A stretch of DNA of 20,334 nucleotides from a virus: the IMG/VR virus record IMGVR_UViG_3300011013_000122, positions 1-20,334 of that record. The stretch is one strand, 5' to 3'. Both the position numbers and the translations under genes were made by a program. Shown here in pieces: positions 8,254 through 20,334 of the stretch. Position 1 is the stretch's first letter; each line of letters starts with the position of its first letter. The notes below the pieces were generated by a model. The model was not told the origin of the DNA. It did not search any database and worked only from the letters and a program-made list of their open reading frames with translations.

Positions 8254-8694
8254 ATGGCAGATGCAAAAATTACAGATTTAACAAACAAAACAACATTAGA
8301 TGGAACAGAAAATGTGGTTATTGTTGATGACCCTTCGGGAACACCTATTACAAAAAAATCAACAATTCAAGATATTTCTAATCTAGCAACTGTAATAAAT
8401 GCTCAAACTGGAACAGCCTATACCTTAGTATTAACAGATAATGCTAAACTGATAACCTTAACAAATGCTTCGGCTATTACATTAACAATTCCTACAAATG
8501 CTTCAGTTGCCTTTCCTGTTGGAACACAGATTGATTTAGTTCAAGGTGGTGCAGGAGCAGTTACAATCGCAGGAACAGGAGTTACTATAAATTCAAAAGA
8601 TGGCAACCTAACTATCAATGGACAATATGTTGGTGTGTCTTTAGTCAAGACAGATACTGACACTTGGTTATTATTAGGTGATTTAACCGCATAA
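8254..8694 (+). CDS. putative fibre-associated virion protein, 146 aa
   Basis: Beta-rich and low in aromatic residues. It starts with a short helix-prone segment (MADAKITDLTNKTTLDGTEN) typical of phage fibre and head-fibre N-termini that anchor to the virion. Then come repeated short strands: YTLVLTDNAKLITLTN, ITLTIPTNASVAFPVGTQ, GAVTIAGTGVTI, LTINGQYVGVSLVKT. The 'TGTAYTLVLTDNAKLITLTNAS' type of domain appears in phage fibre and virion proteins. It has no receptor-binding signature that I can see. Its TAA overlaps the next ATG (TAATG), so the propeller protein is probably made by stop-restart, in a set ratio with it. Expected partner: the propeller protein. Confidence 0.55.
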   Translation: MADAKITDLTNKTTLDGTENVVIVDDPSGTPITKKSTIQDISNLATVINAQTGTAYTLVLTDNAKLITLTNASAITLTIPTNASVAFPVGTQIDLVQGGAGAVTIAGTGVTINSKDGNLTINGQYVGVSLVKTDTDTWLLLGDLTA

Positions 8695-9572
8695 TGGCTT
8701 TTACTTTAGGAATAATTGGATATAGCGGAGGAGCAAAACCTTTTGGGTTGTTTGGAGGAGGATATATTAGTGGTAATTCCAACTACACCGACAAATATAC
8801 CTATTCGGATGACACTGTAGTTGCAGGAACAGTCTTAGGATTAGCAAGACAGAATCTAGCCGCTACAGGTAACACAATCGAGGGAATATTTGGTGGAGGG
8901 TATGGTAATTCTTACTCTGATTACACCGACAAATACACTTATTCTGGTGACACTGTAGTTGCAGGAACAGTGTTAGGGTTAGCAAGACGCGAACCAGCCG
9001 CCACTGGTAATTCTACCGAGGGAATATTTGGTGGAGGGTTTGATGGTTCATATACTAATCACACCGACAAATACACATATTCTGGTGATACTGTAGTTAC
9101 AGGAACAGTCTTAGGATTAGCAAGAAATGGTATAGCCGCTACTGGTAACTCCACCGAGGGTATCTTTGGTGGAGGAAGCAATGATAATAATACTAACCAC
9201 ACTGACAAATACACTTATTCTAATAATAGCGTAGTAGCTGGAACAGTCTTAGGATTAGCAAGACAAAAATTAGCCGCTACTGGTAACTCCACCGAGGGAA
9301 TATTTGGTGGAGGCTATAATACAACTGATTACACCGATAAATATACATATTCTAATAATAGCGTAGTTACAGGAACAGTCTTAGGATTAGCAAGATGGGC
9401 TCTAGCCGCTACTGGTAACTCCACCGAGGGTATCTTTGGTGGAGGGATTTCTACAACTGATTACACCGATAAATACACTTATTCTAATAATAGCGTTGTA
9501 GCAGGAACAGTGTTAGGGTTAGCAAGATATTTTTTACCCGCTTGCTCATCAACAGCAAATGGATTAGGTTAA
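8694..9572 (+). CDS. kelch-like six-blade beta-propeller virion protein, 292 aa
   Basis: After an 19-aa start, the whole protein is six tandem repeats of 44-46 aa at residues 20-65, 66-111, 112-157, 158-203, 204-247 and 248-292. Each has a glycine-rich strand (FGGG), a variable stretch, TDKYTYS, a strand VVAGTVLGLAR, three variable residues, then AATGN-S/T-EGI. The Gly-Gly, Tyr and Arg spacing resembles kelch motifs, so a compact six-blade propeller exposing six pairs of loops is likely. Residues just after 'LAR' differ in every blade (QNL, REP, NGI, QKL, WAL, YFL), as do the loops after FGGG, while the frame is nearly constant. This is the pattern expected of a receptor- or sugar-binding surface, probably on a tail or head fibre. 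Translation probably restarts from the upstream stop (TAATG). The exact fold is inferred. Confidence 0.75.
   Translation: MAFTLGIIGYSGGAKPFGLFGGGYISGNSNYTDKYTYSDDTVVAGTVLGLARQNLAATGNTIEGIFGGGYGNSYSDYTDKYTYSGDTVVAGTVLGLARREPAATGNSTEGIFGGGFDGSYTNHTDKYTYSGDTVVTGTVLGLARNGIAATGNSTEGIFGGGSNDNNTNHTDKYTYSNNSVVAGTVLGLARQKLAATGNSTEGIFGGGYNTTDYTDKYTYSNNSVVTGTVLGLARWALAATGNSTEGIFGGGISTTDYTDKYTYSNNSVVAGTVLGLARYFLPACSSTANGLG
8751..9569 (+). repeat. six tandem ~138-bp repeats encoding propeller blades
   Basis: Unit of 138 bp for four copies, 132 bp and 135 bp for the last two. Stretches such as GGAACAGTCTTAGGATTAGC and GGTAACTCCACCGAGGG recur nearly unchanged among copies, so the array can recombine. The last copy lacks the AATGN end, which terminates the array. 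Confidence 0.85.
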
Positions 9573-10198: not shown

Positions 10199-10813
10199 AT
10201 GTCATATCAAAGCTGGAGAATACAAAAAGAAGACGGGAGTTATTTACTCCAAGAAAATGGAAGCTATTTACTGCTTGATGCGTTATATGTCCAAATAGGG
10301 CTAGGTTCTTTTATATTAACTGGGAAAAATGTAATACTAGGTGTTGGTAAAAAAATGTTAATATCGGCTGGCTCTTTTTTGCTTACAGGAAAAGACATAT
10401 TATTTGATCTTGGAAAGGGAATCATCGCAGGATTAGGTTCATTCGCTTTAACTGGAGAGAATATTCTAACACACATAGCGGTTTCAATAAAAACAGGTGT
10501 AGGTTCATTCATCTTAACAGGAAAAGATGTATCAATTGGAATTGTAATAAAAATGCTTGCAGGATTAGGAACATTTACTCTAACAGGTAAAGATTTAATA
10601 TTTAAAATAGGTAGAGGAATAGTTGTTTCATACGGAACATTTGCAATAACAGGAAAAAGTGTTCTATTAAAGTTATCAATTTCAATGAAAGTAATTTATA
10701 GTTCATTTTCATTAGTAGGTAAAAAAATAAGATTTGCCTTTAATGGTATGTACACAGTATGGACTAACAAAACCAAAAATGTCGCAAATTGGATTAACAA
10801 ATTAAAAAACTAA
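10199..10813 (+). CDS. virion protein with seven 22-aa GSF-LTGK repeats, 204 aa
   Basis: The N-terminus has two short copies of a motif (DGSYLLQE, NGSYLLLD) known from phage virion proteins as 'edGsyLLlE'. Then seven repeats begin at residues 36, 58, 80, 102, 124, 146 and 168, exactly 22 residues apart, of the form G-S/T-F-x-hydrophobic-T-G-K-x-hydrophobic. The Gly/Ser/Phe and Thr-Gly anchor points with alternating hydrophobics suit a repetitive beta-roll, solenoid or short fibre shaft. The C-terminus (NGMYTVWTNKTKNVANW) is different and may cap it. Neighbours are other fibre-type genes, with one base between this stop and the next start. Related repeats are annotated in phages only as structural or hypothetical. 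Confidence 0.6.
   Translation: MSYQSWRIQKEDGSYLLQENGSYLLLDALYVQIGLGSFILTGKNVILGVGKKMLISAGSFLLTGKDILFDLGKGIIAGLGSFALTGENILTHIAVSIKTGVGSFILTGKDVSIGIVIKMLAGLGTFTLTGKDLIFKIGRGIVVSYGTFAITGKSVLLKLSISMKVIYSSFSLVGKKIRFAFNGMYTVWTNKTKNVANWINKLKN
10304..10765 (+). repeat. seven tandem 66-bp coding repeats
   Basis: Codons for G-S/T-F recur every 66 bp at 10304, 10370, 10436, 10502, 10568, 10634 and 10700 (the last reads S-S-F). Nucleotide identity is modest, so the repeats are old compared with the propeller blades upstream. Confidence 0.7.
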
Positions 10814-13870: not shown

Positions 13871-16800
13871 ATGGCAACAAATTTAAAACAAATTTTAGGA
13901 CAGATTACTGGTGCTAAAAAGAAACCTGCACTTGATTTCAAGGTGGGTGAAGGACTAACCCCAGAACAAAAGATAAAAGCAGAACAGATAGTAAGGAAAC
14001 CTGCACCAGTTTTAAATAATAAACAAAGTAGTGCTTATTGGGGTAATTTAATTAAAACAGAATTCACACCAAGAACAAATGCAGTTCCTATAAGGAGATT
14101 ATTTGCTAAAGAACCCACACTAACAAAAGCCCCACCAATAGCCACACAATTAGGTGGACTTGGTTTTAGGTTAATAGAAGCAGTTCCTAAGGCAGTTGCA
14201 ACTATAGGTGGAGAGTTAAAAGCAGGTTTCAAACCAACAACAGTAAAAAGTAATATAGATTTAAGGAGGTTTGGTTTTGATAAACCCAATTATGTAACAG
14301 CTTCTAAGGAAGTAACAGACAGGATAAATAAAGGTGAAAACCCATTTATTGCAGGATTAAATGTACTATCTAATAAAAGTTTAGATGTAGCTTTTGGTGC
14401 ATCATTGTTTGGTGATTTAGCTAAATTAAGTACAAGTATTTTATTAAGTGGTGGTCCTGAAGCGAAAATTGAAGCACAAAATGTTATAGATGCTTTCAAG
14501 TCAAAACAAAAGGAAGTATTTGCTAGATTAAAAAATGCACCATTAGATGTTAGGGAAAAAGCCCTAGCAGATATTTCTAATGCAAAAACTCAAGCCGAAA
14601 AAGTATTAAAAAAACTAGGGAAACCTAATTCTTTTGATAGGGCAAGAGTAAGTGCTTCTCGATATACTGAGTTAATAGGAAGACAAACAGAAGTAAAGGA
14701 TTTAGGTAATTTCTTAAACCCAGACATAAATCTTAAAACACCAAAGATAACACCCGCACCAATAGGAACTAAACAACTACCAGGAACAAGAGATGTAAAT
14801 AACACTCAACCATTTGGTCTTTCTATTAAAAAGGTGGAAAATGTTGGGAAATCTGAAACAGAACCTTTAATAAAAGAAGCTAAGAAATATAAAACTGCTG
14901 ATGAGTTTGTGGAAAAAAATATAGATAATTATATTAAAACCACTAAAGAATATAAAGATTGGGCTAAAGGTAGTTCAAAAATTATTGAAGCGTATCACGG
15001 AACACCATACTCTTTTGATAAATTTGAAATAGGTAAAAAACAGGCTGGTGCTTATGACATAGATGGGATTTCTTTTGCTCCTGAAAAAAGATTAGCAGAA
15101 CCATTTAGTAGGCAATATCCAGATTGGTATTATAGTAAAAAGAAAATTATAAACAAAAAATATCCAGAAGTATTTGAAATAAAAGATAAAATAAAACAGT
15201 TAGAAAATAATAAGAAAATTAGAAGTGTAGAAGCAATTAAAAAACGAAGAAAACCAATATATAACACAATAAAAAAGAGATGGGAAGATGAAAAAGATTG
15301 GTTATTTAACAATAATTTTGAAAAATTTAAAGAAGAGTATACCTTTCTGTTTGATGAACTTAAAAAACTAGATAAAGAATTAGAGAGAGCAAAAGCTAAA
15401 ACAGATATTAATATTACTACGAAAGAAAAAAAAATCTTAGAAAGTTATAATAAAGAATTGCAAAAACTTAATGATTCTGTTAAAGGAAATATATATAAGG
15501 TGTATATTAAGGGTAATAACATAATAGATGAAATCGGTGAGGATCTTGGTTTTTCTTCTTTTAGGGATCACGCTCTTGCCGAATTAAGGGGAGATATACT
15601 AAGAATTAAAGATGCTGATACTGGTCAATATATTGGAGAAGAAATTATGGTAAATGACCCATCTCAAGTATTTATAGTTAATTCCCCTAAAAATATATCC
15701 AAATTAAAAGAAATCTGGGAAAAAGCTAATAAACCAGTATTGCCAAAGATTAAAAATCAATCATTGATTACAGAAGCTAAGAAATATAAAAGTGCAGATG
15801 AGTTTATAAAGGCACATAGAAAAAAAATACAACTCGAGAAGATTAACAAACTTAATCCGATAAAAGATAATTTTCATACAGGTATCAGATCTATTGATGA
15901 TATAAAAACATTCAAAGAGGCTATTAAAGACCCCGAGTCCTTTGTATATCCTGATTTTAATAAAGAAACGGCAGAAAAGGCAACTAAAGATGGGAAAATT
16001 ACAATTTACAGTTCTAAACCATTGGATAAAGAATTAGCCCAATTTGTTAGTCCATCTAAAATGAATGCTACTGATTATGCAGGTGGTAATACTGTATATT
16101 CAAAAAATGTAAACATAGATGATGTTGCTTGGATAAATGTCGATGAGGGTCAATTAGTTGGTAAAACAAAACCCCAACTCACAGACATCTGGAATAAAGC
16201 AAATAAAATTACCCCTGAAACTAACTTAATAAAAGAAGCTAAGAAGTATAAAACTGCGGATGAATTTACTAATTCATTATTTAAGGAAGGTTCAACACCA
16301 TCGAGAAATAGTTCTAAACTAATAGAATTAACTAAAAACGGAAAAAAGGTAAAATCACAAACACTAACACTACTTCGTGGAACTTCTAATATTTCAAAGG
16401 AAAATCCAAAAGGAGGGTTGTGGTTTACTGAAAATGTATCTGAAGCAAAAACATACGGAGATAACATATATGTTGCAAAAGTAAAACTTGGAAAAACAAG
16501 AACATTTGATGATGTAGAAGATGCTTATTTCTCTTTAACTGGTAAAGAACTAACACAAAAACAAATAGATGGTGGGCAAAGAGTAGTTGAACCTTTATTA
16601 AAAAAAGAAGCACAAAAACAAGGTTTAGATAGTTTAGTATTAAAATATGGTGGTGTTGGAGATGGTGCGGGACAAAATCCACAAGTAGTTATATTTAATA
16701 ATAAATTAATTATATCCAAAGCCAAATTAAATGATATATGGGAAAAAGAAAATAAAAAAGAACTTCCTAAAATAGCAACTCAAAAAACTACAACTGGAGC

Positions 16801-19717
16801 AAAAACCAAGAAGACAATAATAGAACAAACAACCCAAAAACCAGAAACATCTTTTACTCAAAGAATTAAAGATTTAGCTCGTGGGGCTAGAGAAGCTACA
16901 ACCCTTACAAAAACCCAGATTAAAGCTACTCAAAATGAATTAACCAATATAATTAAAGAATCTAAACTTGGGTTGGCTGATAAGGGAAAGTTTTTATCAT
17001 CTGTAAAGAATGTGCAGACGCCAGAACAACTAAACAAGATTATTCCTGAAGTGGAAACAAGGATTACAAAACTAGAAGAAGCATCAACAAAAAGAAACCT
17101 ACTTTCACAAATAAAAAAAGAACTTAAAGCACCTATAACTAAAAAGGTGGGTTCAAACAAGATTTCAAAGTATAGCCCCAAAACCACTAAGTTATTGAAG
17201 GAATATAAGACTGGAACTACTTTATTATCTCCTGAAGGCTTAAAGATAAAAAAACTTCAAACCACAGCAGATTGGTACGAAAAACATCCTAATGAGTATT
17301 TACCCGAAAGTGTAGTTAAAGAATTAGAAGACTTAAATAAAAAGAATTTAAAATCTCTTACTATTCCCGAGTTAAAAACAGAATTAAAAAATATTCAATC
17401 CATAAAATCACAAGGTAAGACTTTTCAAAGAATAACCAGAGATAGAGAAATAATACAACGAATACAGAACATTGACAAGTTTAATGAAATTATTGATGCT
17501 GATAATGTAGATAAGGCAATAGTTCCTGAAACAAAAAACATAATACAAAGGGCTCTTACAAAAGCAAAGGTATTCAATCTTAATCTATTAAATAGTGATA
17601 CGCTTTTTGATACACTAGACGAAACATCTAAGGCAAAACTAAACTCTGGCGAAATACACAGCTTCTTTCAAAATGCAGTAAATAAATCAAGGGATTTAGA
17701 AATTATATTAAACAAGAAAGATCTTAAAAACACACAAGAGTTACTAAATAAATACGAAATAGGAAAAGAATTAAACAAAAAAGAAACCTTTGATATAAAT
17801 GGAAAACCCACAAAATTGACCAGAAACTCAATGATGGAAATTTATCTTGCAACATTTGACAAGGCTAAGCTTAATTCTGTTATTGTAGGTAATAAAATAC
17901 CAGAAAAAGTCATTTCTAAAATAATATCTAAATTAACCAAAAACGAAAAAGCATTAGTTGAAGACATACTTAAATATCATAGCGATAAATACCCAGAAAT
18001 AAATGAAGTATTTAAAAAGGTTAACTTTATGGATATGCCTAAAAATGAGGGTTATTCTCCTATGCACAAAGACCTAAAGTTCACAAAAGATAATGAAATA
18101 AACATAGCGAAAGATAACCTACAATATGCAAAGGCATCTGTTAAAAAGGGTTCTACAATAGAACGAAGTGGCTCTCTTGCACCTATAAAGTTAGACTTTA
18201 TTGGAAATCTTGTTAATGATATTTCACAAGCGAATCATTATATTTCTTGGGAACTTCCAATAAAAGAAATAAACTCTACTCTTTCTGGGATAAAAGATTC
18301 TATTGTTTCAAAATATGGAAATGAATATTATGATGTATTAAGAGAATGGGTTAAAAAGGTTGCAGGTGATGGTAGATATGATACCACTGTGTTAGCAAGA
18401 GAACTCCTAAGGTTAAGAAGAGGGATTACAAAATCTCTTATTACGAACTTTATTACTCCATTAAAACAGACAATTTCTTTATCTTCGTTCTTAACAGAAA
18501 TCAATGAATTAGACCTGTCGAAAGGTGTTTCAAAATACATATTACATAAAAAGCAATGGGATAATTTTTGGAGTAATGTTCCACAAATAGCAAACAGAAG
18601 TGAAACACTAACTCGTGATATAGGAGCAGTAAGTAAAAGTCGTTCAGCATTAAAGAAACTAAAAGGTAAAAAACCTATTAGTGAAGTAGGGGTAGCCCCA
18701 GTAAGATTGTTTGATAAACTTACTGTTCGTTCAGGAGCAACAGCTGTATATCTAAAAGCAATTAAAGATGGATTAAGCGAAGATGAAGCTATTAAAAAAA
18801 CAATAGGAGTAGTTAGAAGAACACAGATTACTGGTGATATTAAGGATCTTGTGGGATTTCAAAGTGGTGGTGCTTTGGAAAAACTATTAACTATGTTCCA
18901 AAACCAGCCCAATAAATATTATAATATTATTTATCAAAACATTAGAGCCTACGCAAAAGGAAGAAATACTAAAATGGGGCTAGCAAGGGCTTTATTGTAT
19001 GCTTGGATTATACCAACCTTCTTATATGAAGAGTTTAGCACAGGTGGAAAAGCAAAACCCAAAGACTTATTGCTATCAGAAATATTAGGTCCTGCAAATT
19101 ATGTTTTAATTTTGGGTAACTTAATTCAATCTGCTAAAAGTGGTTTTAGTTATTCTGCTTCTCCAATTGAAGATATAGCAAAGAACTTAACTGACTCAAT
19201 GAAAGACATAATTAAGGGAGATATATTAAAATCAATGGAAACATTGGGTGAATTGGCATTAAAAACACAGGGTGTTCCAGTTAATCAACCAAAAAGAACA
19301 TATAAGGGTATTCAAGATATGATTACAGGAAAAACATCTGACTGGAGAAGGTTAATTTGGAGTAAATATTCCTTAAATGAAACCAAATATTCTCCTATAA
19401 AAGCTACTTATGAAAAAGCACAAAAATTAAAAGCAGAAGGAAAAGATAAAGAAGCGCAAGCATTAGTAGATAGTTTAAGTGAGGCTGGTTATAAACTTTA
19501 CAAAGAATATAAATCATCTCTTAAGGCAAAAGAAACTAAACAAGGTAAAATAGATATACTCCCTAAATATAAGGAAATACAAAAGGTTAATAAAACTGAC
19601 CCACAGAAAGCACAAGATATGGTAAATGCACTTACAGATAACGAATATAAATACTATCAATTAGTAAAGAAATCTAAACAAAAAGACGAATTATCAAAAC
19701 AACCAATATTCAAATAA
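13871..19717 (+). CDS. giant polyvalent protein with three ART-like modules, 1948 aa
   Basis: Residues 1-332 are a helical, partly hydrophobic N-terminal part. Then three modules follow, each opened by L-I-x-E-A-K-K-Y-K-x-A-D-E-F (333, 632, 786) and closed by L-x-x-I-W-x-K-A/E-N-K (612, 770, 953). Module 1 shows ART hallmarks: YHGTPYSFDKF (H376), DGISFAPEKRLAEPF (399) and EEIMVNDPSQVFIVN (E590/E591). Module 2 is shorter, with FHTG at 668, YSSKPLDKEL and NVDEGQLVG (E759). Module 3 has LLRGTS (834), GGLWFTENVSEAKTYG (848) and PQVVIFNN. ADP-ribosyltransferases move ADP-ribose from NAD onto targets; this combination in one giant phage protein is the 'polyvalent protein' plan, assumed to be injected. 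Beyond about 1000 the protein is helical, and near 1702-1722 (MGLARALLYAWIIPTFLYEE) is a likely membrane segment. Catalytic competence of modules 2 and 3 is unsure. Confidence 0.75.
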   Translation: MATNLKQILGQITGAKKKPALDFKVGEGLTPEQKIKAEQIVRKPAPVLNNKQSSAYWGNLIKTEFTPRTNAVPIRRLFAKEPTLTKAPPIATQLGGLGFRLIEAVPKAVATIGGELKAGFKPTTVKSNIDLRRFGFDKPNYVTASKEVTDRINKGENPFIAGLNVLSNKSLDVAFGASLFGDLAKLSTSILLSGGPEAKIEAQNVIDAFKSKQKEVFARLKNAPLDVREKALADISNAKTQAEKVLKKLGKPNSFDRARVSASRYTELIGRQTEVKDLGNFLNPDINLKTPKITPAPIGTKQLPGTRDVNNTQPFGLSIKKVENVGKSETEPLIKEAKKYKTADEFVEKNIDNYIKTTKEYKDWAKGSSKIIEAYHGTPYSFDKFEIGKKQAGAYDIDGISFAPEKRLAEPFSRQYPDWYYSKKKIINKKYPEVFEIKDKIKQLENNKKIRSVEAIKKRRKPIYNTIKKRWEDEKDWLFNNNFEKFKEEYTFLFDELKKLDKELERAKAKTDINITTKEKKILESYNKELQKLNDSVKGNIYKVYIKGNNIIDEIGEDLGFSSFRDHALAELRGDILRIKDADTGQYIGEEIMVNDPSQVFIVNSPKNISKLKEIWEKANKPVLPKIKNQSLITEAKKYKSADEFIKAHRKKIQLEKINKLNPIKDNFHTGIRSIDDIKTFKEAIKDPESFVYPDFNKETAEKATKDGKITIYSSKPLDKELAQFVSPSKMNATDYAGGNTVYSKNVNIDDVAWINVDEGQLVGKTKPQLTDIWNKANKITPETNLIKEAKKYKTADEFTNSLFKEGSTPSRNSSKLIELTKNGKKVKSQTLTLLRGTSNISKENPKGGLWFTENVSEAKTYGDNIYVAKVKLGKTRTFDDVEDAYFSLTGKELTQKQIDGGQRVVEPLLKKEAQKQGLDSLVLKYGGVGDGAGQNPQVVIFNNKLIISKAKLNDIWEKENKKELPKIATQKTTTGAKTKKTIIEQTTQKPETSFTQRIKDLARGAREATTLTKTQIKATQNELTNIIKESKLGLADKGKFLSSVKNVQTPEQLNKIIPEVETRITKLEEASTKRNLLSQIKKELKAPITKKVGSNKISKYSPKTTKLLKEYKTGTTLLSPEGLKIKKLQTTADWYEKHPNEYLPESVVKELEDLNKKNLKSLTIPELKTELKNIQSIKSQGKTFQRITRDREIIQRIQNIDKFNEIIDADNVDKAIVPETKNIIQRALTKAKVFNLNLLNSDTLFDTLDETSKAKLNSGEIHSFFQNAVNKSRDLEIILNKKDLKNTQELLNKYEIGKELNKKETFDINGKPTKLTRNSMMEIYLATFDKAKLNSVIVGNKIPEKVISKIISKLTKNEKALVEDILKYHSDKYPEINEVFKKVNFMDMPKNEGYSPMHKDLKFTKDNEINIAKDNLQYAKASVKKGSTIERSGSLAPIKLDFIGNLVNDISQANHYISWELPIKEINSTLSGIKDSIVSKYGNEYYDVLREWVKKVAGDGRYDTTVLARELLRLRRGITKSLITNFITPLKQTISLSSFLTEINELDLSKGVSKYILHKKQWDNFWSNVPQIANRSETLTRDIGAVSKSRSALKKLKGKKPISEVGVAPVRLFDKLTVRSGATAVYLKAIKDGLSEDEAIKKTIGVVRRTQITGDIKDLVGFQSGGALEKLLTMFQNQPNKYYNIIYQNIRAYAKGRNTKMGLARALLYAWIIPTFLYEEFSTGGKAKPKDLLLSEILGPANYVLILGNLIQSAKSGFSYSASPIEDIAKNLTDSMKDIIKGDILKSMETLGELALKTQGVPVNQPKRTYKGIQDMITGKTSDWRRLIWSKYSLNETKYSPIKATYEKAQKLKAEGKDKEAQALVDSLSEAGYKLYKEYKSSLKAKETKQGKIDILPKYKEIQKVNKTDPQKAQDMVNALTDNEYKYYQLVKKSKQKDELSKQPIFK

Positions 19718-19932: not shown

Positions 19933-20334
19933 ATGATACATAAAGAAAAAATAAAAAGTGAAGACCCTAGATTAGCTAGACATATATATCATGATGACCG
20001 TTCTTGGAATTATAAACTAGATACTTCAAAGCTAGAGATAAAAGATGTAGAACATAAGCGTCTTATTCCTGTGCTTAATCAAGGGCAATTAGGAAGTTGC
20101 ACTGGTAATGCAGGAATTGGTGCAATAAATACCAACCCATTTCAATTAAATAATAAAGTCTTTTCTCCAGATGAAGATGGTGCTATTAAATTATATTCAG
20201 ATGCTACAAAGATAGATAGGTTTGGTGGTCATTACCCACCTAAAGATACAGGTTCTAGTGGTTTAGCAATAGCTAAGGTTCTTAAAAGTAATGAATTAAT
20301 ATCAGAATATAATCATACCTTTACCTTAAATGAC
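19933..20334 (+). CDS. papain-like (C1A) cysteine peptidase, partial at right edge
   Basis: The frame starts at ATG 19933-19935, one base after the previous stop, and remains open to the last base (134 codons seen). The active-site motif is clear: NQGQLGSCTGNAG at residues 49-61, with the oxyanion-hole glutamine Q50 and the catalytic cysteine C56. The His and Asn of the triad should lie beyond the window edge. It has no visible signal peptide and no long prodomain: only about 43 residues precede the catalytic part. C1A peptidases cleave proteins. In a phage this could be a lysin for a proteinaceous surface layer, a processing protease or an injected effector. Position after a membrane-anchored coiled coil favours lysis, but this is inference. 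Confidence 0.85.
   Translation, partial: MIHKEKIKSEDPRLARHIYHDDRSWNYKLDTSKLEIKDVEHKRLIPVLNQGQLGSCTGNAGIGAINTNPFQLNNKVFSPDEDGAIKLYSDATKIDRFGGHYPPKDTGSSGLAIAKVLKSNELISEYNHTFTLND

Follow-up and report, generated by a model that had tools for sequence, protein, structure and literature searches.

Organisation of the carrier gene

The window analysed here is the whole of the IMG/VR virus record IMGVR_UViG_3300011013_000122, a linear record of 20,334 bases. Structural genes, with matches to terminase and the major head protein, precede the gene of a large polyvalent-type protein (the carrier), which contains an array of three cassettes (Table 1). Each cassette opens with one conserved element (A) and closes with another (B), and the two enclose a core; the motif pair is A = PLIEEAKKYKSAEEFV, then B = KTKSQLTDIWNKA. 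The start motif LI[KT]EAKKYK[ST]ADEF is located at residues 333, 632 and 786 of the carrier and the end motif LxxIWxK[A/E]NK at residues 612, 770 and 953. The first-pass annotation of this DNA had described three head-to-tail modules of about 290, 150 and 180 residues between shared motifs; A and B were each found three times at these places, and the modules measure 290, 149 and 178 aa from A to B. The A element of cassette 2 starts 9 aa past the B element of cassette 1, and that of cassette 3 starts 5 aa past the B element of cassette 2. Profiles of the two motifs gave 0 matches at scores of at least 16 (A) or at least 15 (B) in 936,829 residues of reversed open reading frames (ORFs) from the collected loci; the motifs are therefore not due to chance.

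A Pfam scan of the carrier gave nothing above the curated cut-off. Residues 1129–1822 (window 17255–19336) match phrog_9880 (E 2.2e-33). Large proteins in phage records (BPP-1, Vibrio, Pseudomonas and Cobetia) are related to this C-terminal part, with 21–25% identity.

Table 1. Carrier gene and cassette elements in the window
Feature	Position	Strand	Properties
Carrier gene, polyvalent-type protein with cassette array	13871..19717	+	open frame, 1948 aa
A element, cassette 1	14864..14926	+	profile score 58.5; 36/45 nt as in majority-codon A
Core 1, ART-PolyVal-like (YHGT) with long Lys/Glu-rich insertion	14927..15685	+	PF18760 and core-only profile match
B element, cassette 1, worn as DNA	15686..15733	+	profile score 29.4; 26/39 nt as in majority B
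A element, cassette 2	15761..15823	+	profile score 53.4; 35/45 nt as in majority-codon A
Core 2, second core family (IYS here, IYR in relatives)	15824..16159	+	phrog_13543 E 1.7e-20; core-only profile probability 96.2; AlphaFold2 pLDDT 85.1
B element, cassette 2, near-consensus DNA	16160..16207	+	profile score 49.9; 35/39 nt as in majority B
A element, cassette 3	16223..16285	+	profile score 49.2; 34/45 nt as in majority-codon A
Core 3, predicted ART-fold domain	16286..16708	+	AlphaFold2 model, AcrIF11 top match; PF18760 E 0.016
B element, cassette 3, worn as DNA	16709..16756	+	profile score 22.4; 25/39 nt as in majority B

Nature of the three cores

All three modules had been proposed to resemble ADP-ribosyltransferases (ARTs). 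This stands for modules 1 (from sequence) and 3 (from the predicted fold); module 2 belongs to another family, for which an ART fold is unproven. Cores 1 and 3 match PF18760 (ART-PolyVal) with 26.3 bits (E 1.4e-5) and 16.4 bits, respectively; both lie below the curated cut-off of 31.2 bits, so the two are filed as ART-like and not as formal ART-PolyVal members. The cores were also compared, with the flanking motifs cut off, with an ART-PolyVal-like profile of 34 cassette cores and with a second family of 17 cores. Core 1 (probability 91.5) and core 3 (95.8) match the former; core 2 matches the second family (E 2.4e-9; probability in Table 1) and reaches just 12 with the ART-PolyVal-like family. 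Three control comparisons with ParB-like cores all gave probabilities below 1. The Lys/Glu-rich insertion of core 1 (approximately 15130–15560) is probably a coiled-coil and has a weak OmpH-like match.

The AlphaFold2 model of module 3 (pLDDT 84.3, pTM 0.76) recovers the ART fold in a Foldseek search. The top match is the anti-CRISPR ADP-ribosyltransferase AcrIF11 (6kyf; PMC12421852; E 5.3e-4, probability 1.00), followed by PARP2/tankyrase. VIA superposes the model on 6kyf with Z 6.8 and an rmsd of 3.9 over 110 aligned residues; VIA results bear on the families listed there and leave room for unlisted ones. On the strength of this model, core 3 is predicted to have the ART fold. The two proteins share 15% identity, and AcrIF11, as the relevant part of PMC12421852 describes it, is a stand-alone protein with Csy1 as its target. 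As regards the H-Y-D/E active-site residues of ARTs, core 3 has RGT at the place of the HGT consensus seen in its relatives, and its third motif reads PQVVIF, as noted earlier, without a Glu.

The model of module 2 is of similar quality (pTM 0.78), and Foldseek gave no match in the PDB at E ≤ 0.001. The VIA rows for it are weak, several being ARTs (best KptA, Z 3.4). In BFVD the model of core 2 finds two polyvalent or MuF-type phage proteins with 46–47% identity. In module 2 and in four close relatives the sequence is IYS/VYS (Ser in 5/5), at a position where the other aligned cassettes have YR (11/11); core 2 thus has Ser in place of the first-strand Arg of ARTs of the R-S-E type. A Glu had been said to be kept in modules 1 and 2, but the motifs concerned come from two families and are not confidently alignable. 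The array is two ART-like cores plus one core of a second family, and, as in polyvalent proteins, several distinct effector domains are found in one 1948-aa polypeptide. In both models A forms a helix-turn-helix and B one helix.

A and B flank unrelated cores in environmental phages

Searches of IMG/VR with the modules returned loci with the same A and B around other cores. Module 1 alone gave no match in IMG/VR and module 3 alone matched one locus there; neither matched GenBank phages. When the protein motifs were written as degenerate DNA patterns, IMG/VR yielded 77 stretches with B and 68 with A; wider patterns gave 81 and at least 119, respectively. The collection holds 146 complete cassettes, mostly from IMG/VR virus contigs (133 non-redundant at 90%). 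The repeat loci L039, L065, L074 and L097 and the window copy L023 are excluded from counts from the profile scoring on. The two elements occur together in a fixed order. At loci found by A alone, B lies downstream of 24–25 of the 30 A elements with room for it and upstream of none (0/30); at loci found by B alone, A lies upstream in 38/47 and downstream in 2/47.

Pfam assigned the cores of 88 cassettes to ART-PolyVal (26), GNAT (2), NTP_transf_2 (1) and ParB_N (1), among others, and ParB-like PHROGs were found in up to 7 cassettes. Cassette cores exceed the curated cut-offs (in brackets) for NTP_transf_2 with 46.1 bits (21), Acetyltransf_1 with 29.7 (20.7) and ART-PolyVal with 51.1 (31.2). 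No single Pfam or PHROG family spans most cassettes, and hence A and B do not correspond to any listed family. Since ART, ParB-like, GNAT and nucleotidyltransferase cores are all found between the same A and B, the motifs mark the ends of a cassette and are not part of the ART domain.

These data bear on the origin of the array. The annotation had suggested that one ancestral ART module was copied in tandem within the carrier and diverged in place; the motifs would then be the structural limits of the ART fold. In its favour, modules 1 and 3 are both ART-like, and A and B are common to all three modules. However, core 2 comes from another family, other phages have nucleotidyltransferase, GNAT and ParB-like cores between these edges, and the nearest relative of core 3 in flank-free BLAST (L226) sits in a different carrier cluster. 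The non-ART cores between the same elements contradict duplication in place; we reject it and regard it as highly improbable.

Unrelated enzyme domains thus lie between A and B, and related cores recur in different carriers. The 91 carrier tails fall into 17 clusters; 10 representative tails have almost no Pfam or PHROG matches. In 17 pairs the cores are related but the DNA around them is not alike (several pairs share loci). In several related-core pairs, such as L131/L137, L084/L119 and L049/L132, DNA similarity runs from A to B; the carrier tails are related by protein for L049/L132 but not for L131/L137. Related DDGHNR cores follow the A element in L064, L110 and L147, and the carriers of L110 and L147 differ.

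Cassettes can sit head to tail, a few residues apart. The 131 ORFs with a complete cassette have one in 118 cases, two in 11 and three in 2 (the window and one other), and of the 30 spacers that separate a B from the following A, 21 are 2–16 aa long; both counts include near-duplicate loci. A and B were not found in 50,697 GenBank phage records with the queries tried, or in 72,556 PLSDB plasmid records with one query. The A pattern occurs in 11 contigs of metagenome-assembled genomes, three labelled Parcubacteria or Falkowbacteria and the others from other groups; among 379 genomes of the phylum of one such genome, it was found only in that genome.

Natural replacement of cores

Three sets of near-identical phages differ in that the entire core is replaced, and their DNA ceases to match within or at A and B. 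The loci L070 and L091 belong to the same carrier cluster as the window. On the left side, 978 nt ending at the left edge of A are 100% identical; on the right side they are 97.3% identical over 3,900 nt, starting at nucleotide 5 of B. Between these points L070 has a nucleotidyltransferase and L091 an ART-PolyVal core. L091 has approximately 350 nt extra ahead of its A. In its ORF (residues 467–583), about 115 aa of other sequence run from a worn A-like stretch (PLVEEAKRK) to just before the ART cassette, and may be what is left of a previous cassette.

A second replacement is seen between L081 and the pair L056 and L077. The left sides are 99.6% identical over 237 nt, reaching 44 nt into A. 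From nucleotide 5 of B, the right side of L056 is 97.9% identical to L081 over 142 nt and that of L077 90.9% over 3,106 nt. The core is a 252-nt ParB-like one in L056 and L077 (weak Pfam match, E 0.016) and a 645-nt one starting YHGT in L081. In the third case, L121 and L136, the flanks are 98.8% identical over 401 nt and 99.0% over 102 nt, and the cores of 234 and 174 nt have no similarity. Under a strict rule that both sides be alike, 19 cassette pairs were obtained: 16 have the same core, in all cases 100% identical, and three have different cores (L056/L081, L077/L081 and L121/L136). L070/L091 falls outside this rule because of the extra DNA before A in L091. As close phage relatives carry unrelated enzymes between the same ends, phages appear to swap whole enzyme domains within one protein.

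Conservation of A and B as DNA

The conservation of A and B as DNA exceeds what protein identity and codon usage give. Codons were analysed in non-redundant sets of 155 A and 98 B elements, with no tree of relatedness modelled. For the null, codons were redrawn 300 times for these protein sequences according to the codon usage of each locus. The mean pairwise DNA identity is 0.741 for A, compared to 0.689 after recoding (maximum 0.695), and 0.747 for B, compared to 0.683 (maximum 0.690). Just outside the elements, identity drops to 0.30–0.32. In A, Ser11 is AGT in 98/108 elements (local usage 0.22), and Glu13 and Glu14 are GAG in 117/128 and 129/144 (usage 0.31), yet Glu5 is GAA in 124/152 (Fisher p 1.2e-37 for Glu5 against Glu13). 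In B, Ser5 is TCC in 62/64 (usage 0.09), Asp9 is GAC in 76/93 (usage 0.31) and Ile10 is ATC in 64/97 (usage 0.14), and Asn12 and Lys13 show even codon choice. Ser5 lies outside both B search patterns, so the TCC bias was not produced by the search. Heterogeneity among two-fold sites is significant (p 1.7e-6 for A and 1.3e-22 for B).

A and B could be conserved purely for protein or RNA reasons, such as a phage protease site, docking or translation, with the cores diverging in the ordinary way. The elements are nearly always protein motifs within long open frames, and the second gene past the carrier is peptidase-like (phrog_16701, E 2.5e-20). Against this, choice of codon by position is not a property of a protein, and unrelated folds cannot diverge inside near-identical surroundings such as those of L070 and L091 (100% and 97% at the DNA level). 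We therefore consider this explanation very unlikely.

The uneven constraint from base to base, its sharp end at the element edges, the arrangement in arrays and the end of L070/L091 identity at the left edge of A would also fit recognition ends for a dedicated site-specific recombinase or transposase, that is, an integron-like cassette inside a reading frame. Recombination genes were surveyed in 34 longer A/B records picked out of all, some of them possibly incomplete. A tyrosine integrase was found in 1/34 (missing in 33/34), a serine resolvase in 0/34 (missing in 34/34), and the single-strand annealing proteins RecT and ERF in 1/34 and 5/34. No common recombination gene was found among these families, other families lying outside the search. 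The low count of integrase suggests mostly virulent phages or incomplete records. The DNA of A and B hardly occurs outside the frames that use it; 15 DNA-level matches were found beyond 383 at the protein level, a count whose frames were not checked by translation. The consensus of A scores 12 against the reverse-complement consensus of B, compared to 13.1 for shuffles (p 0.78). With a score below that of shuffles, A and B as inverted repeats or as a paired stem are rejected. A dedicated recombinase is, on this evidence, unlikely.

Proposed model for cassette exchange

The three modules of the window are, we judge with good confidence, members of a pool of exchangeable in-frame A-core-B cassettes that are exchanged at short conserved DNA arms. 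Co-infecting phages would trade cassettes by general recombination, with phage or host functions, using A and B as short homology arms. Continued exchange of those copies that match the pool would keep the arms similar. In the protein, the helix-turn-helix of A and the single helix of B would act as permissive joints, into which any core could plug with the frame and the carrier intact, and selection would act on the cores through their effect in the host. By analogy with polyvalent proteins, the carrier may enter the host with the DNA, where the cores would modify host targets or counter defences. Delivery with the virion is suggested by the same analogy, and enzyme activity of the cores by this analogy and by the predicted fold of core 3.

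Several observations weigh against exchange at A and B. No recombination machinery was tied to A/B in the 34 long records. The replacements amount to just three independent swaps, all in metagenome contigs, and chimeric assembly could account for such a pattern; in one swap, one of the two states is represented by two assemblies (L056 and L077). The 16 of 19 pairs with 100% identical cores look like re-assemblies of one phage, and consequently no exchange rate can be given. A lacks B in 5–6 of 30 cases and B lacks A in 9 of 47, and in the window itself the DNA of B1 and B3 is worn. In flank-free BLAST clustering, cores 1 and 2 are singletons and core 3 joins one other core only; the family placement of the three cores comes from profile matches and not from BLAST clustering. 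Clustering with a few flank residues left on the cores joins more of them.

A stronger form of the proposal is that A and B are dedicated DNA end-elements, read in frame, of a mobile domain-cassette system, which moves whole enzyme domains between otherwise unrelated virion-effector genes and stacks them in arrays. We put this forward tentatively, and lean somewhat against it. If true, A/B cassettes would be a common exchangeable arsenal of phages, comparable to an integron library but with protein domains as the stored units.

Comparison with known systems

Swapping of segments between conserved motifs is already known. Tetart et al. (1998) reportedly found that segments of T-even tail-fibre adhesins are swapped by recombination between conserved motifs. 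As with A and B, short conserved stretches within a gene allow exchange of a variable functional segment, and in L070/L091, L056 and L077/L081 and L121/L136 a segment is likewise replaced with breaks in or at conserved motifs. The T-even case is said to concern one adhesin family in related phages, whereas A and B join unrelated folds and carriers, are conserved as DNA at both ends and occur in head-to-tail arrays. Integron gene cassettes and polymorphic-toxin tips also place exchangeable cargo behind or between constant sequences and form arrays. The A/B cassettes differ from both: there is no inverted-repeat site, an integrase is rare (1/34 records), and the cargo is an internal in-frame domain with constant sequence on both sides.

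Proteins with multiple ART domains are known as well. Polyvalent proteins of phages and conjugative elements are, like the carrier, large and contain several effector domains (PMC5512222). In the parts of that work that deal with domain content, ART is the commonest modifying domain, with up to 12 copies per protein, and GNAT and ParB domains are also found (Iyer et al. 2017, PMC5512222). The main text of PMC5512222 describes no shared cassette ends or DNA-level exchange elements, as far as the terms 'linker' and 'tandem', which are absent from it, indicate. No published description of the A/B elements or of their motif letters was found in the open-licence literature. The system may have escaped notice because the carrier phages are uncultured, in line with its absence from the GenBank phage and PLSDB plasmid searches. 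If A and B are exchange points, the origin of the changing domain sets of polyvalent phage proteins becomes testable. The pair could then also be used as a probe, as anything between A and B would be a candidate effector or counter-defence domain, even a core without a known family.

Other genes in the window

The gene at 8694–9572 encodes a 292-aa protein in which a 138-nt unit is repeated in tandem about 5.5 times (GGGY..YTDKYTYS..VVAGTVLGLAR..ATGNSTEGIFGG), likely a tail or adhesin repeat protein. The 204-aa protein encoded at 10199–10813 repeats a GSFxLTGKxx-like unit and matches no Pfam family. The peptidase-like gene past the carrier (19933–20334) is cut by the end of the window, and its putative product could process the array at the B/A joints.
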